A stretch of 64,000 nucleotides of DNA, taken from positions 16,454,304 through 16,518,303 of the forward strand of contig JAVLUZ010000145.1 of the NCBI GenBank assembly GCA_036768485.1, given 5' to 3'. The notes under the pieces are model-generated. The model ran no database searches and was not told the origin of the DNA. It saw only the letters and a list, made by a program, of their open reading frames with translations. Made by a program: the position numbers and the translations under genes. Below are positions 9,344-33,400 of the stretch, one piece after another. Origin of the DNA: Mermis nigrescens. Taxonomy: Eukaryota; Nematoda; Enoplea; Mermithida; Mermithidae. Positions within the stretch are counted from its first letter, which is position 1. Each line of letters opens with the position of its first letter.

Positions 9344-12078
9344 GTACGTTTTTTTGAATATTTTTCATAGCTTCTTCAATATTATATTTTTACTATATTT
9401 CCAGATTGAAAGAATGCAATGTCACGAGCGGAGGGAGGAGGGGTTGATTTGTGATGTAAATTATATCATAGTTCATATATTTCTGTGAAATAAAAGTTTA
9501 ATCCGGTTGAATATTTCTCATTTAATCAATATTTTTTCAATGTATGACTGTTTTCTAATACATGGCGCAGGGTTAGAAATGAAGGGAAAGGGGATTAAAT
9601 CCTGCTATACTCTCCCGCTTTTACCTATTATATGTGTTGCGTTTTTTTCTCCAACATTTATTAAAATTTACCTAAAATTACATAAATGGCGAAGGCTTTA
9701 CAGAAATTAGGGGCGAAAAAATATAAAAATGATGATTATTTACAGAAAAATGCAAAGACATTTAATAGCCATATAGAAGGGTGTGAAACATTGGGTACAA
9801 GGCGCGTTTATTGTAGACCACTCTATAGTCCTTAGAACAAATAGAAGTGAAAACGTTTTGTTCATGGTCACGCAAAATTCGTTTTTCCAAAATTGTTCTA
9901 ATCATTACATTGTCAGATAAGGCAAATTTGAAGACCATAGAACAAAGCAAAGCATAATTGACAGTCTTTTCAGTCAAAAGGGCTAATCTGATGCCTCGGA
10001 TTTTCACGCTCTGTCCAACTATTTCCCCATTTTCATTCAAAACTCTATATGCATAATTTTTAGGACCTCCAGCCACAAGCTCCACAAGATATGCATTTGG
10101 CCCAAATCCACTCAATTTGTTGGTTATTTCCCCTAGGTAGCAGCCTGTTGGGACAATGTACGAGTCACTGATTTTGGAGAGGTAAATGATTGAGTCTAGA
10201 AATAAACAAAAGGACAATTAATTTCATTTAATCGTAGGCATAATTTGTTTGGGCTGACTTCCATCCCCGATGATTACCCCTGTTTTTTATCCATATAAAA
10301 ACTATGCTTATTTCACAAAATACATTGTTTAAAAGTAAAAATCATATCTCACCTGTGTCAAGGTAGAGGGACCCGCTCCTCAAGTTTCTCCAAGTATGAG
10401 TAAAGTTTATGTCAAGCTTGAGCAGTTACAAAGGAGACGATGACCGGGTTAGTATATTGCAAGGCTTCCAAAAACTATTCTTTGTTTGTGTAGGTTTCAC
10501 AGGCCAGCAAATCTTCAAAAAACCGCTAACTGGGGATATTTACTTTATTGCTGAACACAAGATCAAAAAAAGACTGCGGGTCTGTGAAGTATCTTGTATG
10601 GGACTGGTTATCGCGTTGCCCAAACTGGAAAAAAGGAAAAATTTTAAATTTTATGTTTTCAAGAAATAAATCTGAAAACGCCAAAGGTTATTTAGTATAT
10701 TCTTAGCATAGGTATACTGCATGCTGATAAACTTTAAATTTTTTCTCACTTTGCCCCAAAAGGAATTGAGCATTAATTTTGCAAGTGCTCTCATTCCAAT
10801 GTTCTTTTTTGATTTTGACAGGGTCCAGCTGGATCCCCTCAATTTTGTAGTAATTTTTACATATTGGGCTTTTTCTTGGTCGGTTTTGGCATCCAAGGGC
10901 CACCCATCAGCCTGCTGCTTAAGCCGCAGGAAGGTATTTATGTGCTCTGCAAACAATCCACCACTTTTGTTTTTGGATCATATTGGACCATTTTAGGGTA
11001 ATGCCATACCTCGTGAATTTTGATAATCTGAATAAACAATGAGAAGCGATTAATTATGTCAAAATGAAATGATTTCTTATGGGGGTGAGGGAATTATCAG
11101 ATTTTTTAGAACAATAATTGTTGAAAATAGGGTTTTTAGACAAAGAACGCATATTTGTGAGTTTTCTCCTGTTTATCCACTGTGCAATATTCAATTATCT
11201 GCATTTATTTATATAATTGAATTAATATATAAGTTCTAAAAAGGTATTCAAACCTGAAAAAGTAATTTTTAGGGGTTTTACCCTTCTTCTATTGTATGCA
11301 TAACTACACGTAATAATACGTCCTGAAGCCTTTTACCCCCTCTATGTACACATTTGTATTTTTCTCACTTTATAGCCTTTTTCCAGGGCCTTGTAAATCT
11401 CTAACAAGACCCGCGCTCCGCTCAATGCCCGCTCAGAATTGGTATGCTCGCAAAAATCCATTTTTTTTGGTGGCTGCACATGTGGTACAGTGGGAAAAGG
11501 AGGCTTTCCATTCATACGGTAAGGAAGCACTAAGTGGTATAATTTGTGTGGGGGGCAAAACACAGCACTTTATTATTCCCGTGTATGGTTTATTAGCCAA
11601 TTCCTCAAAATTTCTGGTAATTATTTTAGGATGTCTGAAAAACTATGAAACAAAACATTAGTTTTTTGCATTTTAGAAATTAAACCTGAAAACACCAAGT
11701 TTATTAAGAACACAAATGGACAAAACAAAGTGCAAAAATATTTAAAAATCTCACTTTATTGGGAATGGACTGGTCTTGCAGACCCATGGATAGAGGGAGC
11801 ACACATCCACATATTGGATGGTCTCTCCAGGTTGGCACTTGTGATACAGCTTTATGGCGTTTGTCCTTCCTCTAAAAAAGCTTTGCAAGGCCCGAGGGCT
11901 TCCATTATTTTGAGTGAGTCAAAAATGCCTTCATTTCCTTGTTTTCCTGGAAAATCAGGGAAAAACGCATTATTTTCACGTATGAAATAGCGAAAAATGC
12001 CTGGATCCCCACCTCCCCTTCATACATTTGCTTTTAATAATAATCATACATACATTATGTTTTTACTAGTGTTGTAAA

Positions 12079-12233
12079 AGATATCTTTATCTTTATCTTT
12101 TTAGCAAGATAAAGATAAAGATAAAGACATCTTTATCTTTATTTTGATGATTTTTTATCTTTATCTTTATCTTTTGGAAAAATCACAGGCTATCTTTATC
12201 TTTATCTTTATCTTTTTTGCAAAAAAGATAAAG
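12079..12233. repeat. (ATCTTT)n microsatellite with inverted arms
   Basis: Blocks of ATCTTT hexamers alternate with their complement AAAGAT, so the tract can fold into hairpins. It sits inside the polymerase B pseudogene. Confidence 0.9.
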
Positions 12234-14447
12234 TATGTATATAAGTTAGCATGTAATCCAAAATGCAGGTTTGACTGGAAATACATTAAGATGCATTCAA
12301 CTTTTATTATAATACAAAAAAAGAAAAGAAAACAATTGTTTAAACCCTATGGTGTGCGGCCCAAACTAATGCATGTACATATATCAACCTGCGGGAGTGA
12401 TACCCATCTAAGCAGGAGTTTTACTACTAGCACCCATGTTAATCAAAGTCCAAGCTTAGGAAACATGGGAAAGTTTGAAAAATCAATATCTGTTGCGACT
12501 ACACTTTGTGCAGGCGTACAAAGCAGAGTTCTGATGCTTGTAAAAGAAAGAAGTGACTTGCTATCTGCCAGTGGCAGTAGTACGTGGGTCAGTTTTTGTC
12601 AAGAATGTGAAATTTCCGTAAATTTGCAATATTGTAAAACCAAAATATGCATAAGCTAATCTTTAAATAATTACTATTTTTTGTTGAAGATGAACGTTTT
12701 TACATAAATTTGCAATATTTTAGCTTATTTTTAGGAAAAAATATCAAAAATGAAAATTTTCTACATAAATACTACTTTTACCATTGAAAAAATGCTGCTC
12801 TCGCTTCTGCATTCATTGAGTCTGGGCCATAATGTTCAGAATCTGGCAATGGGCCAACATAGTCCCGATTTGTAGAGGTGTTGAAGAAATGGAGGAAGTA
12901 GCCTTTTTTGAAGCTAGTTTCACTGAAGGTCTTTGGAAATGTGCTCAGGGAGCATTGGCAGAAAATTCAGCGTGTTGATCATGCAAACACCTACAGCCTC
13001 CAGCATGAGAATCTCCAGCCCTTGAAAATATAATAATGGTGATTAGAAAAAATGTATTATTTACGCTTTAAATCTATATTTTTTATGCAGAAATAAGAGT
13101 TTTTTTTGCAAACATTTGTCTTAAAAATTTTTAATCTCTCTTTTTTACTATATGTGTATATCTATTCATTTTTAGCTTTTTTCTTTGTATATTTTTAGGC
13201 TAGCATGTTTTAAAAATAAAATACTGATTACTTAACGTTTCTCATATTTTTGAACAATTTTGAGTCTTGATTATTTTTATTGCTCACCTTTCATTAGTAC
13301 TTTAGGCGGAATAATCCTCTGCTTGTGCAAATATTTGAGGAGGAACTGGGAATCGAAGCCACATGCATTATGGGCCAATGCGGTCACTCCTTGGTTTTGC
13401 ACAGAGAACAACCATTTACCGAACTCGCTGAGGCAAGTCTCTCCCATGGATATATGACAATTTTGGCCTCCTGCAGTTGGCGCAAGACCTCAGCTCTTTG
13501 TCCCTGCATTGATCGCACAATTGGTACACAATGCAGCAGTTAGGGATGTGCTTGAAAATTGGATTATTGACATTTTCGGACATCTGCATGTCCTGACGGG
13601 TCTTTGAAGTCAAAGAAAATGAAGACTGGCCGCTTTTTGCCTAATCTTTTGTCCTCTTCCTTAATGGTCTGAAATGAAAAAGACGCTTTAAATTAAACGT
13701 TCTGCTAGGCAGGAATTATGAGGGCTCTCTCCTTTTTTCAAAAATAATTTCGAAAAAATGAGTAAAATTCAGTAAAATTAGAAAAAAATTGCAGGTATTG
13801 TGTGCTTTTTATACTGATTTCTGAAAAAAATTCAAGAAAAACTAGTAAAATTCCATAAAAAAAGAGCTTAGGTCCCTCCTAAATCCCTTGTGCTGTACAC
13901 ATAATAGATAAATGCAAAATAAAATTTTTTCTAATTTTTCCTCTTTCTTTGTGTAATTATTTATTTTTCCATATTTTCTTTATTTTTTTGCCAAATTAAT
14001 CACTTTATATTATTATCTTAGCTTTGAAACTTACTTTCATGTAGCATCCTGCCCCTGCTTGTCCACATTTTTGTTGCAAGTCTTGCAGTGGAACTATAAA
14101 CATTTGTGTTGCTTAGCATGCCTGGTCTTAATCAGTTGGTTGCAATTCTTGCACCATTTTACTTGCTTGTAAACTGAATGAACTTTCTGTACTTTGCCGG
14201 TTTTCTTTGCTTTGGATTGGCCCATTTTGTGGTTCAGGAAGCACTGCAGGCTTGGGGAATACCTTCAATTCAAGAAAAACAAAAAATTAGTAGATTGGCT
14301 TTTACAAGCAGATGAAAAATATAAATTTTGGTTTGAAAAATTTGTTTTTTTTCAAAAACCTCATTAAGTCAAAAAGTATTTTGCTTCAAACTATCTACGT
14401 GTATATGTATGTGTGCATATGTATATATATATGATAATGGTAAAAGC

Positions 14448-14512
<65 letters not shown>
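14448..14512. repeat. (AAT)n microsatellite
   Basis: About 65 bases of pure AAT repeats inside the polymerase B pseudogene. It creates a spurious poly-isoleucine reading frame. Confidence 0.95.
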
Positions 14513-14514
<2 letters not shown>

Positions 14515-14960
14515 TTTATTCACCTATTGCAGTCTTCACAGTTTCCATTCTTCTTTGAAGCATGCTTTTGGTCAATTGCATCCCGGACACCCTTCCCTAT
14601 TGCATGGGTGGTCTTCCTCATTGCTGTAGCCATGATCGCATTTATCACAGTAATAGGCTCTGGCCATGAACGTGGGCATTTTGGTAATCAAATCATAGTG
14701 ATTGTCACAAAGGTATATATGCAAAAAATTCTCAGCAGGAGGGCCTTTGTAAATCAGTGCATTGAAATGCTCTTTGAAAATATCTTGATCTGATATTCAG
14801 TGCTCAAAAATTCCTGCATTTTCTGCGCTTCTTCAATGCCACAAAAAACCGAGGAAATTTTTGAGACCGGAGTCTGCCATTAATTGCTGGGCCAGACGCT
14901 TTTGCAGCATATTTCTACCATGCTCTCCTACTCTTATGGTGTTCCATTGCAGGTGTTTGT

Positions 14961-17900
14961 CCAATTGGGCTTTGGCTACCATGATCGCTCAAGCCGAGCA
15001 TAAATTATCTGTATTTTTCATCTAAACTTTCAAAACAAAATTTTAGAACTTGAAATACTAACAATTTCGACAGTTGTAATTTTTTTATCTTTTTTTCAAT
15101 TGAAAGTGAGAAAATTGATAGTATTCAATACAGTGGGAATTTACCCCCGGGAAATTCTTAAAATGTAAAAAATTGACAGTTCTGGCACAAAACTCATAAA
15201 ACAATGAAAATAACAAGAGAAGAAATTACGTTTTTAACGCTTTTAGCACATTCAATATGAAAAATCTCGCTTTTAAAAAATTATGTGTTCTGCACATTTC
15301 AAACAAAAATAATATATAGGGTTTATTCAAACACGTCGTTCAGAATCTTTTTAATAATTAAACATTTATCAATAAAAAACGAAACATAAAGATTATTATG
15401 TTTTTTTCTTTCCATGGAGTTGAGATTTATAATGAAAGATTACAATTTTTCCTTGCTCATTTGAGATGATAAACACATTTTTTTAAAATTGTACATTCTA
15501 AATAAATACGCTAACTTGATTAATTAAGTTTTTATGTCAGCTCTTATACTATGTACATACATACTGTTAAGCAAAAAATCTTTTATTCTCATAAATTATG
15601 TATTGCGTTTTTTCAATATAAGTGAATTTCAGAATATTAACCATTAAGAAAATTACGTTTCTATTGATTCTCCTCGCATTTTTTTAAATCGTCGTTTATG
15701 GTCAATCTGGCGTAAAGTTTACTCATTGTTTGCATCATATATGTATTAATTTCTGCTAATGAGGACTGTTTTGCTCCTGCATTTGTAAATTTATGTTTTT
15801 CCTTTTTATTCAAGCATAATTAATCTAATCTTATTTTGGCTTAGAATTCTTATGTTATGTGAACACGGAGTGGAAATTTCCCCCCAGGGAAATTTTTCAT
15901 GCAAAAACTAGGCTGAGTTACACAAAATTGACTATTTTTATAAGCATTTTCTGAGATGTGCTTTTTAGAATACCAAAAAAATTTAAGCAAATTTGAGCTA
16001 AAATTTAAATTTCTGAATCTGTATAAAACAGCCTCCATGCGGGCCAGTATGTTTATTGAACCATTCCTGCCAATTTACACCACAATTGTGAAGACTGGTG
16101 TTGGCCTCTTGCCCCCTCTTGGCAAATCTATGATGACCACCACATCAGATTACTGAATTTGCTCAATGACATTCAAGATGCGGTCAGCATTCATTGATTC
16201 TACCAGGGCAAAGGCCACCAGGATGCGAGTATTGAGACTTGGATGACCTATCTCGAGGCCTACTTGTTGTTAGAATTGTGCCCAGACAAGATGTGTTTGG
16301 CAACCACATTCTAAATGACAGGAAACAAATTTGCACTGATTTTATTGATATTTTTGAACTGAATGCAGTATGGATGTGGCTTCTGCGTTGAATCTTTTTT
16401 ACCTTTTACGTGTGATTGTTTGCCAATGATAAAATAATTTTTCAACTGGGGCTAATCCACCCTAAACTGCTGTCCAATTTAGCTGTTGAATAGAGAATGC
16501 CGTAATTTGGGGGATCCAAAATTGGCTCGTTCTCAAGTCAATGAATTCAAAATTTGTATAACTTTGGCAATAAACCATAAAATTTTCCAATCGTTTTTCC
16601 ACAATTTGCTGTCAACCAAGAGCTGCAAATTTTCACGAGAAATTTTGGGGGAAAAGTAGTTGATGCGAGGAGCTGGAATCCTTTTATTGTAGTTACCCAA
16701 AATTGTTCTGTGGTTATATTTTGGCATTCAATAAATAACAGTATTCTGCAATAGGTTAATTAAGTGCAAGTTGCCAACCTACACGCTTGATTCAATAATT
16801 TGTTTCAGTAAGTCTCAATTGAGAGCCATTTGTTTGCAAGCTAGACCATGAACGACTAATCATCCATTGCCCTCCCTATTTATAACATTTTTTCCTTAGT
16901 GGAAATTTTCACAGTGGAAATTTCCCTGATGGAAATTTCCTTAATGGAAGTTCATGGTGATATGATGAAATATGACGCAATTCTATGCTAGACTGTATGC
17001 ATTTGATGAGTCATCATCAGCTCAGTCTTGAGGCAAGCAGATACTTGCTTTTCAAGTATAATGCAAAATTGCATTAAGTGCTTTTTTGATTTTACCTATT
17101 GGTTCATACATATAAAAAACTTCAATGTTGTAAAGCTTTTTGGTGTGTACCTATCCGTAGCAGTATCTTCAGCTACAGCAACTACTTTTACTAGGTCTAC
17201 CATGCTTTTTGGAACCACAGTGTCTTTATTTTTTTGTAAAGCACTCCTATGAGGAATTTAAGTTTCTTCCTATTTCACAGGCAACTTTTTAAACCATGCC
17301 TCTTGTAACTACTGCTCCTCATTTGGGTTCCCCTTAACTCTCCTTGGACTGTTCCTACCATACTTGACAGTTTTGCTGGCTTGGGAACAATATTTACAGT
17401 AAGAGGGGTGCTAAAAGCCCTCTTTGGCTGCTCTTCTAAGACGCTTAGTAAATGCGTTGCAAGAATATATTTACGCACTTTTTGCTCTGAACTACCTTTT
17501 TTAACTTTTCAGTAATTGTTCTTTATCCGATTTGATTTGTACCTGAGCAATAATTACAGGATCTTCCATAATTTTAGATTATTTCATGAGCAAGTCAAGA
17601 AAAATTGCTTGGGATGACTTACATTTTAAAACACTGTTATTCATTTGAACAATGTTAGTGTCAAGGCTGAGCAAAGTTCAAAATGCAAATTCTGGCGGTT
17701 CTGGGTCTTAATACTTTTTGTTTATCTTTTTTGCTCATAGACGGTCCTGCAATGAGGTGAAGACTATGTTCAAATTTCTTACAGTAATCTGGATGTTTGG
17801 AGCAAAATGTACCATTGAGAAGATGATGCGCAGATCAAGTCAAAACTTAATAAAATTCAGGGGTGCCTGTTTTATGAGCAAAAATGCACAGATTTGCTTT

Positions 17901-18044
17901 TATATATTTGGTACCTAGCAAACAAGAATAAGGTTCACTCGATTCAATCTCTTTAAGAGCCCTAGTTTGCATATTTAGGCATAAATTAGATGTTTCGTTT
18001 TTCAAAAAGCTTATATTTTTGGTATTTATAGTTTTCATCATAAA
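14961..18044. other. Polinton A interior, no gene recognised
   Basis: Between the polymerase and ATPase pseudogenes. Short minus-strand open pieces (15850-16038, 16533-16727, 17275-17478) could be decayed accessory genes but match no family I recognise. GGGAAATTTCC repeat patches occur at 15870-15900 and 16903-16955. Confidence 0.35.
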
Positions 18045-18620
18045 GGTCTCCAAATTATCATAGGCTTTTCATCTGCAAAAATGTTTGATTGCATCTGTTT
18101 TTAATAATCCAAGAACACATTATCAAGATATATGGCTTTGTGCACGTTTCAGTAGCTGCTTCAGGGGTCTCCACCACTGTTGCATGTTCAATGTATCTAG
18201 CACATTCAGATGACGGTTTATTGCAAGAGAAATAAATTGTGGGTATTGCGGTTAATAGTTGTAGAAAGGAGGCCTCTAAAAAGGATTTTGGGAGATGAAA
18301 AAATTCAAAATACATTTATCATGGCGAAAAATGGTAAAAGGTCTAGCTAATGCATCGCTTTTTATGGCAAGGTCAGCTAGGTCATTGCATATACATACAT
18401 TAACAATGACTGGCTCAGACAAACACTAGTTTTTGATTTCATCTAAGGATAAGCCTTGCACAAATTCTATGTACGGGAATTTTTCGAGAAATTTTTCAAA
18501 AAGTGGCTGCCATACGTTATAAAAATATATCATTTTATTCTTCTCCTGCTTGAAAGGCCATTCTCCTAATAATTTTAAGAGAAAATATGTTTTCCCACTC
18601 CCGTGGCCCTAAAATTACAA
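18045..18620 (-). pseudogene. Polinton A packaging ATPase remnant
   Basis: A decayed copy of the FtsK/HerA-type genome-packaging ATPase. The DNA from about 18360 to 18610 matches the intact counterpart at about 22260-22530 closely enough to align by eye, including the aggccattct..taataatttt segment. In translation the region keeps the Walker B-side string (CICNDLADLA) and a FISQN segment seen in the intact copy, with several frameshifts and stops. The P-loop end lies near 18.6 kb but is not cleanly readable. Confidence 0.7.
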
Positions 18621-18739
18621 AATTAGCAGGGGCTCAAAGATAATTAATGCTCACTATCTACCTGCTCCATTGCTGCATACACAAAGAGTGCTGATTGCTT
18701 GTACAATAACTTGGTAGTTTTAATGACTTGAATTGTTTC

Positions 18740-19200
18740 TGAAACTACAAGCAAATTTGTTTATTGTTGTCTGACTTATTGTTTGAAAATTTGCATAATA
18801 TACTATTTATAGATTTTTGCTGGCACAGCTCCATGGCCAAATATACACAGTATAAGCAGCAGACGTTTGATGCAATGGACTGTAACACTTTGTCCAAAAC
18901 AACAAGAAAAGAGGAATCGGAAAAAATAACTTATTGCATCTTCTACACATTTTCCGTAAGTTGCAGGAATTTGTGCTAAAGTATCAAAAAGCAAGCATTT
19001 TTTATGTCAAAAAAGCTGAATCCAATGCAGACCTGTTTGATGCAAAGATGGGGCCGTGTTCACTATAATGAAAAATATTTGATCTTTGGGTATTTTTATG
19101 TCTAAAATGCGATCACAAGGGTGCACACCCCCAAAATATTTGTTGGATATGCAATCTAGCTTTAGAATAACGCTAATCTGATTAGCATACATGTTTTGGG
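18740..19200 (-). pseudogene. Polinton A adenain-type protease remnant
   Basis: A decayed copy of the capsid-maturation cysteine protease. The piece at 19007-19192 carries the N-terminal half, ending in a Gly-Leu-His-Trp stretch equivalent to the catalytic-histidine region of the intact protease at 22584-23054. The piece at about 18740-18995 corresponds to the Gln/Cys half but is out of frame. Confidence 0.6.
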
Positions 19201-19209
19201 TATAAAATT

Positions 19210-19640
19210 GAGAATAATATTCATCCTCTGATCAATACTTATAATATTATCCTAGAGCATATAGAAAATTAGCATGAAACTATCATTGAGCGTATTTACA
19301 TCCCACTGCCCTGTAAAACTAACCATCCTATTTCACCTGGTTGAGATTCCACCCTCTTTCCAAATTTGAATCAAATGGGAGAATCTGATGCCCCAATCTT
19401 GAAAAATCATACAGCGTGATACCCATGCCGGAATCCGTATAAAGTTTTTGCACAATATGTAAAGAATTCATGTACGGGTCCATTAATGATTCGCTAGGTG
19501 TGTAGGCTACGGTGGTGGAAACAATCGCCCATTTACTTCAACTTTAGCTCTAATGCAATTTCTAAATGTAGGATTAAAGGGGTTTCTTGCATAATGACCT
19601 AACAACGCATTAGACATCACTAGTGATATTATTACGAGTC
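19210..19640 (-). pseudogene. Polinton A major capsid protein, C-terminal remnant
   Basis: The minus strand, read across several frames, gives a segment with NALLGHYARNPF and then VNGRLFPPP. These match the equivalent strings (NYARNPF, VNGRQYPPA) in the intact capsid gene at 23334-24341. A further part, equivalent to the intact gene's C-terminal end, follows. The gene is cut at 19640, where Polinton B begins. Confidence 0.65.
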
Positions 19641-19913
19641 AGTAGTTAAGCCGTGCGTCCCTAGGGTGCAACACAAAGTATATACAGCTATGTTTTGTGT
19701 TATATGCCCCGCCCGCCCGCCGATTGATCGCTAACAGCCGACACGCCGATTGACGAAGCCCCGCCCACCGAGGAATGAAATAGCGATACATACATAGGTT
19801 GTGTGTGCATATACGCACCTACACGATTTAAAAAATGGTGGTTGCCCACCGCTAATTTGGCCCTTAAAAGGGCCGTTGGGTTTAGGTATGGGCGACATTA
19901 GGTAGCAAACGGC
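19641..19913. repeat. Left terminal region of Polinton B
   Basis: The tip AGTAGTTAAGCC is followed by a GC-rich patch of CCCGCC repeats near 19708-19765 and an imperfect inverted block around ttggcccttaaaagggccg. No ORF. This is the expected place for the terminal inverted repeat; the partner end is not in the window. Confidence 0.6.
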
Positions 19914-20277
19914 TTAGACGTATTGTGTAATGAACCACATGGCCAGGTGTAGCTTGAAGTAGCTCTTGAACGAATAAAGTAAAATCCCAACATCCATATT
20001 TTTGCGTTCCATATTTTCGGCTAAAATATCCGTGTAGGCTAAGAGCGTGTATAAGCGTTGCTTTGTTATGCCCGATCGCATGACGTCATCGGCGAATTTC
20101 GCGTAATTGGCCGTTGTAGCTGTCTCGACGTCCATATCGAAGGGTTGATTTCGCAAGCTCCTTTTCAACCTCTTGCACCTTCTCGGCAAGTTCTCGGTAC
20201 AATGAATCATCGAATCGTGCGCCCATAATGTAAAGGCGAAGAAATCGCAACATATAATTCGTAGCAATTTCGGCCAT
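19914..20277 (-). CDS. Possible Bcl-2-like protein of Polinton B (one frameshift)
   Basis: Two overlapping frames (20086-20277 and 19914-20267) look like one helical protein of about 115 residues split by a single-base shift near 20150. The C-terminal half has the outline of a Bcl-2 fold: a helix ending in a Ser-Gly-Ile-Thr turn, where BH1 has Asp-Gly-x-Asn-Trp-Gly-Arg, then an RLYTLLAYTDILA helix. A final FKSYFKLHLAMWFI segment resembles the helix before BH2. The BH1 NWGR core is not conserved. Bcl-2 and other anti-apoptotic homologues have been reported in adintoviruses, and the position in the accessory block fits. Without structure prediction this remains a hypothesis. Confidence 0.35.
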
Positions 20278-20289
20278 CTAAAAATTTTA

Positions 20290-20793
20290 TTATTCTAAAA
20301 TACAACGCACAATAGCAAATGCACGAAACAGTTCATGTTTATGCTTTGCACCGGTAACAAAAAATTTGCCCGTATGAAAAATAACAGCAGTAACGGCGGG
20401 TTTAAACAGTTTCAGAGTGAGCCCTGGAAAAATTTCTGGCTCGTAAAAACAGTAGGTAGAGCATTTCTTGTACAGTTTAGGCAAATCGACGGGTTTATCG
20501 GCTTTGCAGGAGCCAACAAAATTGTGCACTTTAAAATGCAAAATGCGAATATTAGGTATCTTCAACGTTTCGATGGCTTTAAGCAAGGCTTGGCGTCCTT
20601 CTTCGGAGCTTTTTGTCCCCGTAGAGACCATCTTGCCCGACTTGAAAAGCAGAACCGTTGCTTTTGGGTCAATCAGCTTGAGGCTCAACCCTGGGAACCG
20701 CTTATGAACGCGTAAATTATGCACTTTCGCAATTTCTCCTAAATCCAGAGGAGTTTTTAAATCAGCACTGCAGACAACGTTGCACACAGACAT
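20290..20793 (-). CDS. TATA-binding protein (TBP) homologue carried by Polinton B
   Basis: A 167-residue protein consisting of just the saddle-shaped TBP core, which binds the TATA box and nucleates transcription initiation. Both direct repeats are present, about residues 1-79 and 81-167. Repeat 1 has KRFPG and LLFKSGKMVSTGTKS. Repeat 2 has VGSC, YEPEIFPGL and VIFHTGKFFVTGAKH. The four DNA-intercalating phenylalanines of TBP have counterparts at F33, F50, F122 and F139, with the canonical 17-residue spacing in each repeat. There is no N-terminal extension. The frame is intact, unlike several neighbours. It starts 110 bases from a divergently oriented F-box gene. A cellular TBP pseudogene is unlikely, because the sequence is divergent, intronless and embedded between Polinton genes. 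Confidence 0.85.
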   Translation of the reverse strand: MSVCNVVCSADLKTPLDLGEIAKVHNLRVHKRFPGLSLKLIDPKATVLLFKSGKMVSTGTKSSEEGRQALLKAIETLKIPNIRILHFKVHNFVGSCKADKPVDLPKLYKKCSTYCFYEPEIFPGLTLKLFKPAVTAVIFHTGKFFVTGAKHKHELFRAFAIVRCILE

Positions 20794-20902
20794 TATGGCG
20801 GGAACTTTTGAATTTTTTCAATTTATACTTAAACTTGTAGCTACAAGTTTTGTAGCTACAAAGCAGACTAGAAAAGGCCGTGTTTTCATCATTTTCTCAA
20901 AA
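20794..20902. promoter_or_regulatory. Divergent promoter region with paired palindromes
   Basis: Lies between the TBP start codon (minus strand) and the preferred F-box start (plus strand, 20903). Two identical palindromes TTGTAGCTACAA are at 20835-20846 and 20850-20861, 15 bases apart centre to centre. An E2F-like GGCGGGAA lies at 20797-20804, next to the TBP start. Short TATA-like AT stretches (atttatac) precede the palindromes. The paired sites suggest binding of a dimeric regulator. If the F-box protein instead starts at 20780, the palindromes would be coding. Confidence 0.45.
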
Positions 20903-21889
20903 ATGGAAAACTTGCCCTATCACGTTCTCTTGCTTATTTTCTCATATTTGGGAATCAATGAACGAGTCACCTGCGAATCTGTGTGCAAGCGGTGGCTGTA
21001 TGTTTTGCGGAATTTTATTGGCCCGATCCAACAGAAGCTGATTTTACACGTCAAAATCATTGAAAGTATTCGATACAATAATTACACGAGTGGTCTTTTT
21101 TCCGCCGGCAACCCCTACAATGACCCAGCTCTATACCCCGTCGTAGGAGGCCCCAAGGTCGAGCTGATGGTCGTACGTCACAAAGGAAATCGCGCCCTAA
21201 AGGGAAAACACCATCGCTACGTCACCGATGCCCTGGAAAGATCCAACCCCGAAGTTTTGTCACTATCGAACATTGATATTAATGCCTATTGGGGAAGCCG
21301 CGTTTTAAATCGATTTTTGCAGTCGAATTCGCAGAAACGCTCGCTAATTTTACATGACGCCCGCCTAAAGCTCGAATTTTGGCCCATGGCTGCCTCCAAA
21401 CCCATCAAGATGCTCGTCATGACCCACCTTCACCTCAACTCTCATTTTCCAGAATTTGTTCGCCGCCTCAACCCAGAAAAAATAGTGCTTATCACTGTCA
21501 TTGTGCCTACGGACTACAATGCTATACTCTATGCCTCCATGATTCAAGCCACTCGCCTTACATTTCTGTCTCTCGATTTTGCCGACGAACGAATTTCCGA
21601 AAATCCCCATCAAAAAGTTTCAGTACGCGATTGTTTCGAAAATATTGTTCAATTTTTGTATTTTGATAATCGCAATACTTCGATCACTCTATGTTTTAAT
21701 TTATCGCAAATTTACGAAAATGATGAAGAATTTAACGACTTTATTGTTCAGTATTTTGATCGTGTTAATTTGTACATACTGGACGCGAAACGTCATGCTT
21801 CCGATCTCGATTGGATCGCTGTAAATTATAAATGTTCAAACAAAATTATTTTGCGCAATCGTAATAATTACTTTGTGTCTTCTTACTAA
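20903..21889 (+). CDS. F-box protein carried by Polinton B
   Basis: A protein of about 328 residues, probably the substrate-receptor subunit of an SCF (Skp1-Cullin-F-box) ubiquitin ligase. Residues 1-42 form an F-box: LPYHVLLLIFSYLGINERVT followed by an S/C-V-C-KRW motif. The remaining 285 residues carry no repeats I can name and presumably bind the target. The frame is open upstream to a Met at 20780, but that start would overlap the TBP gene, and the F-box begins right at the Met at 20903, so I prefer the latter. It is the only plus-strand gene of the element. Many viruses encode F-box proteins to redirect host ubiquitination; the target here is unknown. Confidence 0.75.
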   Translation: MENLPYHVLLLIFSYLGINERVTCESVCKRWLYVLRNFIGPIQQKLILHVKIIESIRYNNYTSGLFSAGNPYNDPALYPVVGGPKVELMVVRHKGNRALKGKHHRYVTDALERSNPEVLSLSNIDINAYWGSRVLNRFLQSNSQKRSLILHDARLKLEFWPMAASKPIKMLVMTHLHLNSHFPEFVRRLNPEKIVLITVIVPTDYNAILYASMIQATRLTFLSLDFADERISENPHQKVSVRDCFENIVQFLYFDNRNTSITLCFNLSQIYENDEEFNDFIVQYFDRVNLYILDAKRHASDLDWIAVNYKCSNKIILRNRNNYFVSSY

Positions 21890-21926
21890 TAAAATCAAAA
21901 AACAAATTAGACCGGAATTTTCCGGG

Positions 21927-22581
21927 TTATGTGCTTGCGCGCCATATAATCATGGGTTTTTCAGAAGAAAAAATATTAGTACGCATTTTGTCTCTAAAAT
22001 TATCACAAAAAACATCTACCAAAATATAGTTGTACGGCTTATCGGACATTGTTTTCAGGTATGCGGCTCTCAAAGGTCCATTGGCGCCATATAGTTGCCT
22101 GCTTAATGTATCCACTGCATTAAGATGAGGTGTTTTCGTGAGAACATAATAATGCGTGTTTCTATTTATTGTGGTTGAATAAGGACCTTTCAAAAAAAGA
22201 TTTTGCGATATGAAAACGTTGAGAAGGTTTTTATGGTGCCCATAGACTGTGAAAAGGCGGGCAAAGTCTTCACTTTTACATGCACAGTCGGCTAAATCAT
22301 CGCATATGCAGACTCTTATTTTATCATCTGCATCTTTTTCCAAGCAGCGGTTCTAAGCATAAGCCCTGAATAAATTTAATGTCTGGGAACGTTGCGATAA
22401 ATTCTTCGAAAAGCGGTTGCCATATATTGTAAAAATAATAAATTTCGCCTCTTTCTGATTTGAAAGGCCATTCTTTTAATAATTTCAACAAGAAATACGT
22501 TTTTCCGGAACCTGTAGCTCCTGAAATTATAATATTAGCTGGTGTTTTTAAAAATTCAATGTCCGAATTTATTTCCTCCAT
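21927..22581 (-). CDS. Polinton genome-packaging ATPase (one frameshift)
   Basis: FtsK/HerA superfamily ATPase that drives DNA into capsids of Polintons and related viruses. The N-terminal frame (22324-22581) has the Walker A loop GATGSGKT at residues 21-28. The C-terminal frame (21927-22343) has the Walker B string VCICDDLAD and the downstream SQN sensor-like segment. The two frames overlap by about 20 bases, and one single-base shift near 22330-22343 separates them, consistent with a recent indel or a consensus error. It lies 2 bases from the protease start region, in the usual Polinton protease-ATPase neighbourhood. Confidence 0.85.
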
Positions 22582-22583
22582 CG

Positions 22584-23054
22584 TCAGGGCTTATGCAAAT
22601 ATTTTTTGAACCATATACAGATTTTTTCATCGTTATCAAGTGTATTATCCGTAAAGTTTCGCTCAATCATATTTATGCTTTTATTTCTGCTCAGCTGATA
22701 TATTGCGTACACGCTATACATACCACAATAATTTGATTGTCTCGACTGTAGAACTTTATTCGATGAAGAATATTTGCTTGCTCCTGCTGCAAAGTGATTA
22801 AACGCCAATTTTAGGCAACTTGCGTAACTGTTAAATTTTCTTCCTGTGCTATCGAAAAACGAAACGCTTTTTCCATTTTTGTAGAATACTACCCAGTGAA
22901 CGCCTGGTCCAGTAGATGAGTCTGTGTTGACAATAACGCAGCTATGTTTTTTAAATTTTTGTCGCTTTATTTCATCGCAAGAAAATACGCCTTGGAAGAT
23001 TTCGCTCGATTCCTTATCGCATTTAATTAAGTTTCTTAATTCATTCGTATTCAT
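22584..23054 (-). CDS. Adenain-type cysteine protease (Polinton PRO)
   Basis: An intact 156-residue C5-family cysteine protease, the maturation enzyme for capsid proteins in Polintons and adenoviruses. Catalytic residues are readable: His53 in GVHWV, Asp68 in FFDSTG, a Gln at 103 or 106 before the nucleophile, and Cys110 in NYCGMYS. The length is slightly shorter than adenovirus adenain. It sits between the capsid gene and the ATPase, all on the minus strand with almost no intergenic space. Confidence 0.9.
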   Translation of the reverse strand: MNTNELRNLIKCDKESSEIFQGVFSCDEIKRQKFKKHSCVIVNTDSSTGPGVHWVVFYKNGKSVSFFDSTGRKFNSYASCLKLAFNHFAAGASKYSSSNKVLQSRQSNYCGMYSVYAIYQLSRNKSINMIERNFTDNTLDNDEKICIWFKKYLHKP

Positions 23055-23055
23055 G

Positions 23056-24341
23056 GTATAAAGTCTAAAATTATATTTTTGCGCTCATCAATAGATATAA
23101 TGTTATCCCATAGAAGATAAAAAAGGACCGTAAAATTTTCATTAATTTCATTCTGTGGCCAGGTTCCGGAAAAAGTTACAACACCATTACTGCGCGCTGG
23201 CACACCCCTTCCTCGGGCATAAGGTCAAAAGGAAGGATTTGGTACCCTTGTTCAGTCCAATCATCATAGCTTACGCCAGTGTCCGAGTCACTGAATAATT
23301 TTCTAACCATGCGCAATGAATTAAGATAAGGTTCTAACATGGAAAAAATGGACTGTAGGGGGCTGGTGGGTACTGCCTCCCATTCACATCAATTTGCGCC
23401 AAAAGGCATTTTTTCAACGTGAAAAGAAAAGGATTGCGCGCATAGTTTCCTGAAAAACAATTGCTAGGCATTAAAGTTAAAATTATTAAACGGGGAACCT
23501 GGCCACTGTGTAATGTGAAGTTTGACAATTGTGTTTGGAACATTATCATTTGAGTAGTTCGGACTACAGCGTGATTAACTGCGTATTGAGCGGGCTTTTG
23601 TTTAAGTCCACGTTCTATAGCCAAAACGCCTGCACTGCTTAAATTTATGCGCCTTACTTTTAAAACCATTTTCGTGATTATCATTTTTTCGGCCGCATTA
23701 TTAGTTCCAGAAAGCAAATGAAAAGGAGAGGAAGATGGAAAAAATGTCAATGAAAATTTTACTCCTGGAATAATTAGCTTATTTTGTAATAAAAGGTCTA
23801 AATGAAGTCTTCCGGCCATTGTTACTTCGGCGCTCTTTGCAAATTTTGACATTCTCGCATCAAAACCTGGGTTTATATCTTTGTCAACACCGTTAAATTT
23901 CCCTGCTTTGTCTTTATAGTAGAGCTGAGGGGCTCCCGCTGACCCGTTTTTTGCAGCTGTTGAGTAGGTAAATGCTGTTTCAATGTAGGCCCTGTAGGGG
24001 TAGGTACCTGTAGCTTGGCTAACTAAGACCCCATTTGCTTTCAATGTAATGTCTTTAAAAATCGAATGTAAAGCTAAATTAACGGGCCCGACTCTCACAC
24101 CATCTGCCAAATCAGCTCCAACCCCATCGACGATTTTAGTTCTTACTTTTAATAAAAAACTCGGATCACTTAACTGTGTAAAAGATTCTGGAATATCAAA
24201 TTGTATTGGTTCATCTGACATAAGCGGATTAATCGGAAAAAATTCCGTTTCGGTCTCGCCAGTGATTGCAGATTGCAAGGTAGGACCGGAAAAAATATCC
24301 AGTTCCTCGACGTTTTCGGTAAGTTTCTTAATTTTTGGCAT
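23056..24341 (-). CDS. Polinton major capsid protein (double jelly-roll; frameshifted C-terminus)
   Basis: The major capsid protein that forms the hexon-like trimers of Polinton particles. The first 335 residues are in one frame (23334-24341) and match the family in order: an N-terminal SGP..QS segment, PIQFDIPES, FLLKVRTKIV, VNLALHSIF, TYPYRAYIE, then the second jelly-roll with GRLHLDLLLQNKL, and NYARNPF near the end. The remaining roughly 90 codons continue down to about 23056 in two other frames, implying two single-base shifts near 23330 and 23210. The overall length would then be typical. The breaks may be consensus errors, since nearby genes are intact. Confidence 0.85.
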
Positions 24342-24519
24342 ATTTAGAGTTTCTTAATGCAAAATTGCGTTGTTTTGTAATATTTATAGACTTTCTGCCT
24401 GCACCAACCTGCTCTTTCTTGCTCTTTTTCTTCTTTTTCTGAGTTTGTTTAATGAAGTCTCCAAATGCCCCACCAACTTGCGTATTATTAGTATTTCTAC
24501 AAAAAGGCTCGTATTTCAT
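24328..24519 (-). CDS. Small basic protein between penton and capsid genes
   Basis: A 63-residue ORF overlapping the ends of both neighbours by 14 and 23 bases. It is strongly basic, with an eight-residue Lys/Ser run (QKKKKKSKKE), a preceding Gly-rich GGAFGDF segment and a basic C-terminal tail. By size, charge and position it could be a core or virion DNA-binding peptide like adenovirus pX, or a nuclear-localisation carrier. No homologue is recognised. Confidence 0.4.
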   Translation of the reverse strand: MKYEPFCRNTNNTQVGGAFGDFIKQTQKKKKKSKKEQVGAGRKSINITKQRNFALRNSKYAKN

Positions 24520-25244
24520 TATGCCTTCGAAAATGAAATTTTATGATAATGGGGTCTAAAATATCGTATGGATTTCCCTTAATATCAGTTATAGTCAAAA
24601 ACATTGACGAAATATAGCTTCGAATTATTTTATGATAACATACACGAGAATATTTATAACTTTTGTACATGCTAAACTGGAAAGAATCCATGCATAAAAT
24701 TTGAATATTTCTTGAGCCGAGCATTACTGGCAAAGTGAAGTCGCACACAATGTAAAAAATTGGGTGAGGGACGGAAACTTTGTAATCTGCACGAATTTTT
24801 TGAAGTTTAGTGGGTAGAACGTTAGGGTAAGTTTCATTCTTTTTAAATCCTAAATATTCAGAATCAAATTTCACTTGAGTATTCAAAATGTTCAGAATAG
24901 CAAAATTTTCATCATTTAATTCTACGCTAAAATATTTTTTCAAAGAATCTGGTATCGCAGAGTTGAAAGAAGCAACAAGTTGCTGAGCATTTTGTGGAAA
25001 ATCGATATTTTTAATTGTAAACAGCTCAGAAATTTTATTAGGATCATCCGGAGAGGCATATTTTATAATTTTAGGGCTTCCCACGGGAGGACTTAGAATA
25101 ATTTCTTCGATTCCAACTTCCCATTCACTCGGAAATTCTAGGGGTTTTTTAGCTGAAAAATATAACCATCTTTCTGCTTAATGCTGTCAAGTGAATTGAA
25201 ATAAACGTAAAATTCAGAAGGTCCTGTGGCAAAATCATCCATCT
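24497..25244 (-). CDS. Polinton penton (minor capsid) protein, broken near N-terminus
   Basis: The single jelly-roll penton protein that caps capsid vertices. The main frame (24497-25084, 195 residues) has the family segments FYIVCDFTLPVMLGSRNIQ, the Tyr-rich YKSYKYSRVCYH, and ITDIKGNPYDILDP. The likely true start is about 25244, where a second frame begins with MDDFATGP and a FYVYFNSLDSI string. A single-base shift between about 25085 and 25180 separates the two. It is followed by the small basic ORF and the capsid gene. Confidence 0.75.
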
Positions 25245-25275
25245 TTGTTGTTTTTTAATTCACTAAAAATAATAT

Positions 25276-26331
25276 TTATAATTTAATTACGTCAGAGACC
25301 CAAGAATCAAATTTTGGACCATAACCCCGCCATCTGACTAAATAATCTGTTTTACCATTCTTTTTACGAGTTTCCAGTATTTTTTCAATCACAAATGAAT
25401 CATCGGCTGAAACGCGAATTTTCTGCATTTCTGGCTCATAGAAAATGCCCTGCAATTTTTCATCCATTTGATCCTTTAATGTGTAAACGGGTGGATTCCT
25501 GGCGAACCTCTCTGCTACAATAAAATACTCTTCTGTCCAGTTTGGCCAATACCCCTTTTCGAAAGTCCGCTTAACTTTACTTATTCGCACTTTATCCCCA
25601 ATATTGAATTTAAATTTTACACTTTTTGCTTCGATTCTAAATGCCCTATTTAAAATTTCTTGCTCATTTTCTCCCGAAACATCTTTCGGCGCCATCCCTA
25701 TTGTTCGGTGAAATGATGAATTATAATTTTCCACTAATTTGTCTATAATATCGATGTACCTGTATGTGTTGTTTTTCGAAAAGTATCGCCACATACGTTC
25801 TTTAAGCGTACGGTTAAATCGTTCAACTACACTTGATTTCATTTCGCTTTGTGTTGTGAAAAAAGCTATAAATTCAGACTTTAAAAATTTCTGAAAAACG
25901 CTGTTTGTAAATTCTTTGCCTTCGTCTGTTTGTAATTTATACGGCTTCCTGCCATCAGATAAAATTTTCTTGAATGCATTCAAAACATCATTTGTGCTTT
26001 TTGACTTTAGAGGAATCGCCCATGCAAATTTTGAAAAAAGGTCAATACATGTTAAGAGATATTTGTAATTTTCGTTAAATTTAATTAGTGTTTGCAAATC
26101 TACAATATCGGCTTGCCACTGTTCATCTATTGCGCTGACTAAAACTTTATTCCTACTGTACGTCTTGCGAGCTTGTTTATGCATACTGTATGTCGGCTGC
26201 TTTTGAAGCCAAGCGCTTACATCTTTAAGCTTAACCTTTGGCGAAATTTTTCTAGCGCGGGTCCAGAGTCCACGGGCACCGATATAACCAGTATCAGGCG
26301 CATAATATAATTTTTCTAGAATTTTCTCCAT
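25276..26331 (-). CDS. Polinton integrase (retroviral-type DDE, with chromodomain)
   Basis: An intact 351-residue integrase that inserts the element into chromosomes. The rve core begins near residue 70. The catalytic triad is readable as Asp75 (WQADIV), Asp136 (QTDEGKEF) and Glu170 (SVVERFNRT), with 33 residues between the last two. After a beta-barrel-like region (KFNIGDKVRI), residues 311-351 form a chromodomain (VIEKILETR, YLVRWRGY, DSWV), which in this family is thought to guide insertion to modified chromatin. An N-terminal His/Cys zinc finger is not evident, so the start may be shortened. Confidence 0.92.
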   Translation of the reverse strand: MEKILEKLYYAPDTGYIGARGLWTRARKISPKVKLKDVSAWLQKQPTYSMHKQARKTYSRNKVLVSAIDEQWQADIVDLQTLIKFNENYKYLLTCIDLFSKFAWAIPLKSKSTNDVLNAFKKILSDGRKPYKLQTDEGKEFTNSVFQKFLKSEFIAFFTTQSEMKSSVVERFNRTLKERMWRYFSKNNTYRYIDIIDKLVENYNSSFHRTIGMAPKDVSGENEQEILNRAFRIEAKSVKFKFNIGDKVRISKVKRTFEKGYWPNWTEEYFIVAERFARNPPVYTLKDQMDEKLQGIFYEPEMQKIRVSADDSFVIEKILETRKKNGKTDYLVRWRGYGPKFDSWVSDVIKL

Positions 26332-27009: not shown

Positions 27010-27170
27010 TTACAAGCCATTTTTCGCTTCTTCAACCTGTTGAGCAACATATTTCTTAATCACCATGTTCCAAGCCTCCTGGGATGCCCTATTATATTCA
27101 CAACATCTTGGGCACATTTGAACGTTAAAATACCATTTTCCTGAATTTGTTTCAAAAACGTCTTTTTCAG
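27010..27170 (-). CDS. Hypothetical protein, partial (5' part lost in gap)
   Basis: The last 52 codons of a minus-strand gene that runs into the assembly gap. The visible end has a CPRCC cysteine cluster and a helical acidic/basic tail, which could be part of a zinc-binding domain. By Polinton layout the missing upstream part could be another accessory gene or the end of the polymerase, but no polymerase motif is visible. Confidence 0.4.
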
Positions 27171-27270
27171 NNNNNNNNNNNNNNNNNNNNNNNNNNNNNN
27201 NNNNNNNNNNNNNNNNNNNNNNNNNNNNNNNNNNNNNNNNNNNNNNNNNNNNNNNNNNNNNNNNNNNNNN
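27171..27270. other. Assembly gap, 100 N
   Basis: Exactly 100 N, the usual placeholder for a gap of unknown length. TA repeats flank it on the right. Confidence 0.99.
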
Positions 27271-27479
27271 TATATATATATAGCATTTCCTTAGATTATC
27301 TCCAAAAATTTTCTCCCTGTACAAAACATAGCCCTGTCCAAGTTACCCCTTCGCCCCGTCCAACTTTTGGTTCGGCCCGTCCTAATGATGGGCCGATATG
27401 GGGCATTGCTCAGGTGTGCTGAGGGGTATGCTTCTCGAAAGTCCTGGTAGAGGAGATAGCCCCCATAGCTGCACAAGCG

Positions 27480-30463: not shown

Positions 30464-33400
30464 CAGATTTGAACTCTGTTCCTGAGTCGATGCTTTAAAG
30501 GCCACGGTAGGAAATTCGCTTCTAAGTACTTCAACCAGGCTATTACGTTATCTTTAGGAATAAGATCTGAAAAAAACAACAAAAATAACGAATAAAAAGT
30601 GCCATACATTTTTATTTATCGATTATCGTTCATTCAGTTTATTCTTTTATGATTTATTTATCTGTATTATCTTTTATTTAATCATTTAATCATTATTTAT
30701 TCAATTGTTCGCCTGACTTACGTCGTACCCGAAATTATTTTTTACCGAAAATAAATTAAAAAAATAGACCGATAATAGAATAGAATTGATTAAAATAAAT
30801 TTGATTGTTTTCACCCTTAGTTATTGATAAACAACACTTAAAACGCAAATTTGGGTAGTTGTAAACAAAATTTAATACTATTTCTACGTATAACAACTAC
30901 GTAAGTGTGTAATGCGTAATTTGTAAAGTGTAATGTGTAAAGTGTAATGTGTAAAGTGTAATGTGTAATGTGTAATGTGCTATGAGTAATGTAGCGCCTA
31001 CTCGATCATTTTCCTTAAAAATCGTAGATTTAAGAATGAATTGAAATTAATTAAGGTAAAATAATAGGAAACTTAGCCAGTGTCAGTTGTTCAAATGCCG
31101 ATTAGAAAATTCGGCAACACAGGTAAATTAGGCATATCCAATAAAATATTAAAAAATGATAAGAAACAAGCGTAAAACAGAGACACAATAATTATTTGCC
31201 AAACCAGGGTTAAACCTAGCTTAATGCTAAGCTTAGACCGTAGCCTAAAAACGCATGGTCTGAATTCGCATGCCTTATTACCAACAGTCTAAAATTAGGA
31301 TATGCGACGTGGAAGCGAACTAAACTCGTTTTAAATCTAGCTTAAGCCATATGGCGGTGACACTAATTTAGGGTTGACGTCCTTATTCCCATAAAATTAC
31401 GAAAAATTAGATTTTTCCTCTTACCCCAATTACGTTTTCGAATAAAAGTGCTTAATTTGATCTTTTTTGGCGATTCCGTAATTTTTGACCAAAAATAGCC
31501 AACTACTTACGCTTACAAATGACCGACTAACCCAGCCTAATTTTAAGCCCATACGTTTAAACCCGGATTAAATCTAAATTAAGAGCTTCGAGTTAGGGCC
31601 CGAAAATGGGCAACAATTGCTCAGCTATTATGGAGTCGACGCAAGGTTTAAATCGTACTACGACAAATCCATTAACCCAACTTAAACCAAAATTAAGCGA
31701 GGATTAAGCCAAAAATAAGCGATGCTTAAATTCAGATATAAAAACTGAGTCTAAAATACGATTAAAAACTGAAATACCGATTTTATTTAGAAGAAAGATT
31801 AGGCGTTTGCCGCTTTCGATGACATTCTTCTCCAAATCTCGGCTTCTCGAACCCAGCGGATCCCTGGCGTCCAAAACTTCCACCACAATATCCGCTTTTT
31901 CCACAACTTTCTTTACTTCCGAATAATAAATTTTCAACGAATTGTCGGCCGCCTTTGAAGTCGTAAAATCAACGGCGTCGACGTTCGAGCGTTCGGCGGC
32001 TAATGTTTGCTTTGAAAAAAAGAATTAAAATTTACGAAAACATGCAAAAAAAACAAGCAGCAAAAACAAAAACGAAAAACAAACAAAAACAAAAACTTAA
32101 AAAAAACAAAACAAAAACTACACAAAAACAAAAACATAAAAGAAAAGCAAAAACAAATAAAAAACAAGAAACTAAATTCGAAAACATTAAGTCAAACACG
32201 GATTAAAATGAATAAAATAAAATTTAAATAAAACTAAACAAAAACTAAAAGCAGCATTAAGAAAGTATTGATATCAAAATTATATATGTATATGTATATA
32301 TCAAAAAATCTTGAGCAAAATTTGAAAATAAGAAAAATTTTGAATAAACAATAAAACAGGAGAAAAAGAATAATAGAAATAAAAAAGATAGGCATACCAA
32401 AGGAACAAATTGACAAATTATATACGAACACGAAACAATAATTAAGAAAAAACAAACAACAAAGATAAAACGCAGAAAAAGTAGAAAAAAATGAAAATTA
32501 ACGAAATAGACAAGTAAAATATTTCCCTGAAAAATATAATATAGGCCTAAAAAATCGAAACTCTCAAAAACTGCCTTCCGATGATTATTATCTGGCATTT
32601 TCAAATTCCAAAAATTATATTTCTTATCCCACCCCAAAAACTGATATTTTATTCCCACCCTTTTTGGCAAAAACTTACGTTTTTTAAACCTTTTTTATTT
32701 ATGTACATATGCAAGTGTTTTTGTGCCAAATTTTACCCAAAACGCAGGTCATTTACCCCCCCCCCCAACAGAAAAAAAGGCCAAACGCCAACCTAAATGA
32801 AAAATGCTCAAATTTCTAGTAGAATGGTGGAAAACGCTTAAACTAGGGTCAAATTGCGAAAAAATACACTTTTGCATCTATTTGCTGAGAAACTTATATT
32901 TTTTACATTTCATTTCAAACTTCTTTATTTTAGAAAACTTAAATATTTTTAATATATATTTAAAATATTTTTGTTGCATTTTTTTAGTTTTTTGGCTTAA
33001 TATTATTTAACATTAGCGAATTACTGTAGCATCGTATTGATTTTGGCGAACGAGCGCGTCTTGTATCAATGAACCCAAATTGCGCTTCTCGTTCAATTTT
33101 TTATCCTTGGCCCTCTTTCGCTTATCTTTGAGCGCTTGCCTCTGCTTCAATTTGTTAGTTTCTTCCTTGAATGGTAAATAAATGATAAATAAGTTAATAA
33201 ATTATCATAAATAATGGGGAAAATGCGAATATTGAAAACTGACTAAGCGCCCCAGCGCAATGAATAAAAAAGGTCGCGAAAACGAGAAAAATATGGGTTG
33301 GGGAAAAAAGATCAAATTGAGTGAGTGTGGTTCAGAAAAATGGTGAAATTTTGAAAACTTTCGAAAACTTCATTAGAGAAGAAGGTGAGGCGAAAATAAA

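Follow-up and report, generated by a model that had tools for sequence, protein, structure and literature searches.

TATA-binding protein (TBP) is among the most conserved eukaryotic transcription factors and is usually encoded by one or few gene copies, so what would a mobile element in an animal genome do with a TBP gene of its own? The question is raised by a 64,000-nucleotide stretch of the genome of the nematode Mermis nigrescens, an insect-parasitic mermithid (contig JAVLUZ010000145.1; hereafter the window), in which an intact gene for a TBP of 167 aa lies on the minus strand at 20290..20793, within an element related to the Polintons (Mavericks). Taken as a whole, the explanation that we favor, and consider rather probable, is that TBP is a regular gene of a Polinton lineage in this mermithid nematode. 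It is likewise fairly probable that the encoded protein places host TFIIB and host RNA polymerase II on element promoters, a scheme in which binding to DNA and to TFIIB, the use of the promoters, the choice of polymerase, and escape from host control are inferred from sequence.

The TBP gene and its copies in the genome

The frame at 20290-20793 opens with an ATG and runs for 167 codons with zero internal stops, and the gene was identified from the listing of open reading frames (ORFs), PF00352, a structure model, and an alignment. The PF00352 profile matched it in two stretches with 139.8 bits (cut-off 22.9; E 2.6e-41), which rules out a chance ORF. The saddle fold was predicted confidently, and F33, F50, F122, and F139 align with the intercalating phenylalanines of cellular TBPs, the members of each pair being spaced 17 residues apart within each repeat. 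The preliminary description of this locus, which was silent on the strand, had proposed an intact 167-codon frame with both TBP repeats and all four DNA-kinking phenylalanines at this spacing, and these proposals are borne out by the alignment and the profile search, as is the saddle fold by the confident model. Its statement that the gene lies between Polinton genes holds for the right side, where ATPase, protease, and integrase genes follow (21927-26331); the left side is the element's own end at ~19641, some 650 bp from the TBP gene.

The gene is not a one-off. We searched 523,963,438 b of genome sequence in 860 contigs with the window TBP (best 150 of 1793 candidates scored) and with a TBP of family I (locus L045; best 150 of 2048), family letters being our own labels, and a third search, with the Pfam profile, scored the best 150 of 2553. 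The first two lists did not overlap and together gave at least 299 TBP-like places, C457:488638 and C457:488907 of the first list being one broken copy that was counted once; all copy counts are lower bounds and include identical places. Flagged by hand, at least 108 and at least 71 rows of the two lists (about 179) were stop-free over at least 150 query residues. At two loci, TBP copies were associated with inverted repeats of 3.3-3.4 kb with 98.5% identity (L020:1215-8422, with a start-less copy in the spacer, and L021:711-7716, with one copy per arm), whose arms also carried pieces of another family's TBP.

For 12 of 25 loci, each comprising ~10 kb around a TBP, we found a match to at least one integrase, protease, capsid-type, ATPase, or polymerase query (L009, L010, L014-L017, L026, L028, L029, and L031-L033, with L009 and L010 identical to the window). 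Pfam confirmed the ATPase of L029, the polymerase of L031 (DNA_pol_B_2, 167.5 bits), and the integrase and protease of L033. TBP groups A, B, E, and F/G had direct Polinton neighbours; family I is linked by position and family H only by a small ORF recognized by eye; for group C (L030), direct Polinton neighbours were not seen in the stretch examined. Among the best 80 of 1062 candidate polymerase places, 29 had a listed TBP within 15 kb, where 1.4 would be expected under uniform placement, and the remaining 51 are not readable as lacking TBP because the lists hold best matches only. Twenty family I TBPs lay 9.7-13.7 kb downstream of a polymerase on the same strand, with one on the opposite strand, and eight TBPs of the window-TBP list lay 3.4-3.7 kb upstream of a polymerase, also on the same strand.

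Protein surfaces and promoters

Residue numbers and partner labels (TFIIB, TFIIA, and helix-2 positions) on the element TBPs are those that we take to apply from the TBP literature. The four intercalating phenylalanines were kept in 17, 17, 17, and 15 of 17 element TBPs, and the two TFIIB-contact glutamates were invariant in all 17 and in 5 of 5 environmental TBPs. These features, together with the two repeats and the saddle, are shared with cellular TBP (TFIID subunit; PF00352), to which identity is 36-41%. Unlike cellular TBP, the element protein is encoded by a mobile element in one uninterrupted frame without an N-terminal extension, and it has mostly lost two TFIIA-contact residues (E191 kept in 1/17, R205 in 0/17) and the basic patch of helix 2 (R235 kept in 1/17, R239 in 1/17, and K243 in 2/17).

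The saddle of the element TBP would bind and bend a TATA box, often CTATAAATA, upstream of many element genes, and its kept C-terminal stirrup would recruit host TFIIB and hence host RNA polymerase II. Because two residues that contact TFIIA are missing, along with most of the basic patch of helix 2, the protein probably works with little control by TFIIA, TBP-associated factors (TAFs), NC2, or Mot1, so that element genes could be expressed at times when host TBP is in limiting supply or under regulation. A full private core-promoter system, in which an old self-encoded TBP and an extended TATA box would employ host TFIIB and polymerase II free of TFIIA, TAF, NC2, and Mot1 control, is put forward more tentatively, as a proposal with somewhat less than an even chance of holding. 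As far as sequence can bear on function, the earlier suggestion that the element may direct initiation at its own promoters or compete with host TBP is supported.

A TBP that keeps the TFIIB stirrup but has lost E191, R205, and most of the helix-2 residues would also suit a partial, dominant-negative-like role, whose main effect would be to titrate away host TFIIB or to sit on TATA promoters of the host and so dampen host transcription while elements are bursting, and the adjacent, divergent F-box gene could act on host proteins. We consider such interference unlikely, since the DNA-contact phenylalanines are kept, although they would be dispensable for merely titrating TFIIB, and since the well placed TATA boxes on many element genes fit a positive use; the element TBP may also compete with host TBP.

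A TATA box, often CTATAAATA, stands just ahead of many of the element genes. Within 25 upstream stretches of at most 130 bp each, TATAAATA occurred in 8 (0.31 expected; 3 in antisense and 1 in the first 130 bp of ORFs) and TATAAR in 17 (4.4 expected; 6 in antisense and 4 in ORFs). TATTAA was found in 0 of the 25 (2.9 expected), ruling out herpesvirus-like promoters of the TATT type. Across seven element segments, 15 of 27 CTATAAATA sites lay 21-72 bp ahead of an ORF start, against a background of 0.044, while none of the three sites in the remainder of the window preceded one; 12 of the 15 were outside any same-strand ORF of at least 80 aa. The window TBP gene itself has a TATA box, TATAAATT, at 20820..20827 (minus), 34 nt before its ATG, and an extended box, CTATAAATA, stands at 24381..24389 (minus) before a putative capsid gene. 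A search of the genome with PF00382 gave no sign of an element-encoded TFIIB, and its three exon-like matches among 10 candidates indicate that TFIIB has not been multiplied alongside the elements.

The CTATAAATA sites also bear on an architectural role, in which the saddle would bend the element's DNA when it is replicated, packaged, or integrated and would not serve transcription. The kept DNA-bending phenylalanines and the proximity of the TBP gene to genes for packaging and integration at several loci would suit such a role, but bending alone would not require the two TFIIB-contact glutamates, invariant in 22/22 proteins, and 15 of 27 CTATAAATA sites precede ORF starts, and we regard it as quite improbable.

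Several observations weigh against an element TBP acting in transcription as a regular Polinton gene. No match to a Polinton enzyme or capsid-type query was found in the ~10-kb stretches of 13 of the 25 loci (L011-L013, L018-L025, L027, and L030), and the copy in the window has decayed and contains no polymerase gene. Within the proteins, the fourth phenylalanine is changed in 2/17 element TBPs, the second dyad asparagine is lost in 6/17 (1/5 environmental), and some TFIIA and helix-2 positions remain (K236 in 12/17, A184 in 10/17, N189 in 7/17, and R231 in 6/17). TATAAR is lacking in 8 of the 25 upstream stretches, among them, by eye, that of the L031 TBP and those of the genes for ATPase and protease in the window, and 12 of the 27 CTATAAATA sites have no downstream ORF start. 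Some CTATAAATA boxes overlap coding sequence: two of the remaining 3 of the 15 encode QKSINT inside the ATPase end, where protein constraint is a possible cause, and by eye the boxes before capsid-type genes might likewise code for KSIN, in a shorter frame that lies upstream. Some source elements are related (L028/L029; L032/L033), so the p-values for upstream stretches overstate independence, and the sample consists of element genes only, so that host TBP might make equal use of the boxes. On selection, three of the four well-measured comparisons described below come from one family (F/G), and six window-family pairs gave ratios of 0.17-0.47.

Descent and selection

A tree of 54 rows, from which TRF1/TRF2 and mirusvirus TBPs were left out, placed 16 of 17 element TBPs and five environmental proteins in one clade (support 98/97) and the host TBP inside the eukaryotic clade (97/97). 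The family I TBP (L045) fell outside the main element clade, near P0169 (91/61). Approximately unbiased (AU) tests rejected a grouping of the window and L017 TBPs with host TBP (p 7e-70) and one of the 16 element and five environmental TBPs with host TBP (p 0.005), and did not reject family I together with the remaining element TBPs (p 0.12). Host TBP has a gene of its own on contig C73, canonical in sequence and divided by an intron into two exon pieces that lie 2.9 kb from each other. The tree, the AU tests, and this gene structure rule out a recent processed copy of host TBP, an origin that the preliminary description had named among the findings that would refute its proposal. By this tree the element TBP lineage is old and of separate descent from host TBP, and it was perhaps acquired twice, counting family I.

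Three environmental TBPs of 157-176 aa (P0003, P0021, and P0022) were placed beside the Polinton TBP clade, though this position was weakly supported. Scans of IMG/VR with the window TBP, A1, A2, the integrase A3, P0003, P0021, and P0171 returned one locus, L034, at 29% identity, where a TBP-like ORF (L034:7974-8531) lies beside portal- and terminase-like ORFs and by eye suggests an archaeal tailed virus; with this single match, there was no set of TBP-less Polintons to serve as a promoter control.

Nonsynonymous to synonymous substitution ratios (dN/dS; NG86), which the preliminary description had proposed to compare across copies, were 0.15-0.17 in four pairs with dS of 0.40-0.96 (three of family F/G and one of H) and 0.11-0.17 in seven more distant pairs with saturated dS. 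In some families, the TBP gene is under purifying selection. A captured, functionless gene drifting as a passenger could account for the many copies that are truncated or contain stops and for window-family ratios as high as 0.47. That account is very unlikely given the low ratios in the four pairs with unsaturated dS, the invariant phenylalanine and glutamate residues, the near-fixed distance between TBP and polymerase, and a clade apart from host TBP. Least probable of all is a route through RNA polymerase III, in which the TBP would act at element promoters together with Brf-type factors of the host. Brf-TBP complexes (rows 4rod and 6cnb) are among the solved structures matching the window model, but element genes are ordinary protein genes, and the lost helix-2 residues are also used in polymerase III complexes.

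The window element and related systems

The window copy is Polinton-derived, with an intact TBP in a decayed element that we call truncated or non-autonomous because there were zero matches to a type B DNA polymerase between 19641 and 27342. Its left terminus, 19641..19646, reads AGTAGT in the window, L015, L016, and L025, and is common to these and L014, in which the first bases differ; a right terminus matching it as an inverted repeat was looked for in the window element, which contains one run of N, and was not found. Divergent from the TBP gene and next to its start is an F-box protein ORF (20780..21889, plus; PF12937, E 1.1e-8) with a likely ATG at 20903 by hand count. F-box-like ORFs recur near TBP (also L028 8097-9762, by eye, a 26% match), with a possible role in host-protein degradation. 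There follow on the minus strand a packaging-type ATPase whose distal part (21927..22343) is broken in frame against its A32-like P-loop part (22324..22581; PF04665, E 3.2e-5), an adenovirus-type cysteine protease (22584..23054; PF00770, E 2.2e-5), a broken gene for a putative capsid protein of 335 aa (23334..24341, with a 420-aa relative in L029 and further matches in other frames at 23054-23343), an open frame for a putative second structural protein named by position only (24497..25177), and a retrovirus-type (rve) integrase with a chromodomain (25276..26331; PF00665, E 1.7e-14; PF00385, E 1.3e-7). The putative capsid protein gave a model too weak (pLDDT 43) to confirm a double jelly-roll fold, and zero Pfam and zero PDB sequence matches. 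At the right of the element lies a small minus-strand ORF with the CxxC motif MCPRC (27010..27342, of which 27171-27270 is N), by eye like the ORF beside the family H TBPs of L048, L049, and L052.

Co-linear blocks matched the window in L014 (97.2% over 5858 bp), L015 (96.5% over 4489 bp), and L016 (96.1% over 5863 bp), and the 1-kb flanks of these four copies were unrelated except for a 96-bp match between L014 and L015. L009 and L010 were 100% identical to window 15593-25493 over 9901 bp, sequence outside the element included, and may stem from transposition, from a large segmental duplication, or from duplication in the assembly. Directly left of the TBP-bearing element lies an older, decayed Polinton remnant on the minus strand (10735-19638), with polymerase pieces at 10735-13638 and, as far as 19638, pieces of ATPase, protease, and capsid-type genes. 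Exon-like pieces at 31707-36101 (minus) resemble by eye a host gene for a nucleostemin/GNL3-type GTPase.

With known Polintons, the elements share the chromodomain integrase, the A32-type ATPase, the adenovirus-type protease, and, in relatives of the window copy, the type B polymerase. TBP as a regular element gene was absent from the open-access literature that we found, in agreement with the preliminary description, which knew of none in Polintons or adintoviruses, nor did we find there an animal genome in which mobile, diverging TBP genes number in the hundreds. Nematode Polintons are reportedly the subject of a 2023 study by Jeong (cited in PMC11071308). Herpesvirus vTBP works with host RNA polymerase II and is the nearest working analogue of the element TBP. 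The vTBP, UL87 in human cytomegalovirus, is a TBP-like factor for viral late promoters (PMC7162547); it belongs to a set of six viral factors and recognizes TATT, whereas TATAAATA is enriched here. African swine fever virus has a TBP-like factor, B263R, with the TFIIB C315R (PMC7458399), and shares a virus-encoded TBP thought to serve late promoters, but there it is accompanied by an RNA polymerase and a TFIIB that are both viral, and no multiplied TFIIB was found in this genome. Mirusviruses, with TBP in 59% of genomes (PMC10132985), and the mirusvirus-like elements of Cymbomonas (PMC10675990) likewise place TBP in a DNA virus or endogenised element, but mirusviruses are large HK97-fold plankton viruses with RNA polymerase genes as hallmarks, while the elements here are of Polinton kind and reside in an animal. 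Among named proteins, the product of a COX1 gene of this genome (contig C61; mitochondrial or a nuclear copy) is closest to those of the mermithids Thaumamermis and Romanomermis, at 67-68%. For R. culicivorax, 6.5 Mb of Polintons have been described (PMC10879605), and the words Polinton and Maverick are absent from the main text of the Mermis nigrescens assembly paper (PMC10989877).

Our results suggest that promoter recognition can be supplied by Polintons themselves, elements regarded as standing close to the root of many DNA viruses of eukaryotes. The element TBPs bear on how a host tolerates surplus TBPs, and they make it possible to test whether a given TBP surface is required for initiation (TFIIB) or serves regulation by the host (TFIIA, TAFs, NC2, and Mot1). 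If the private core-promoter system is real, the hundreds of TBP genes in this nematode would be a standing natural library of variants shaped by selection.
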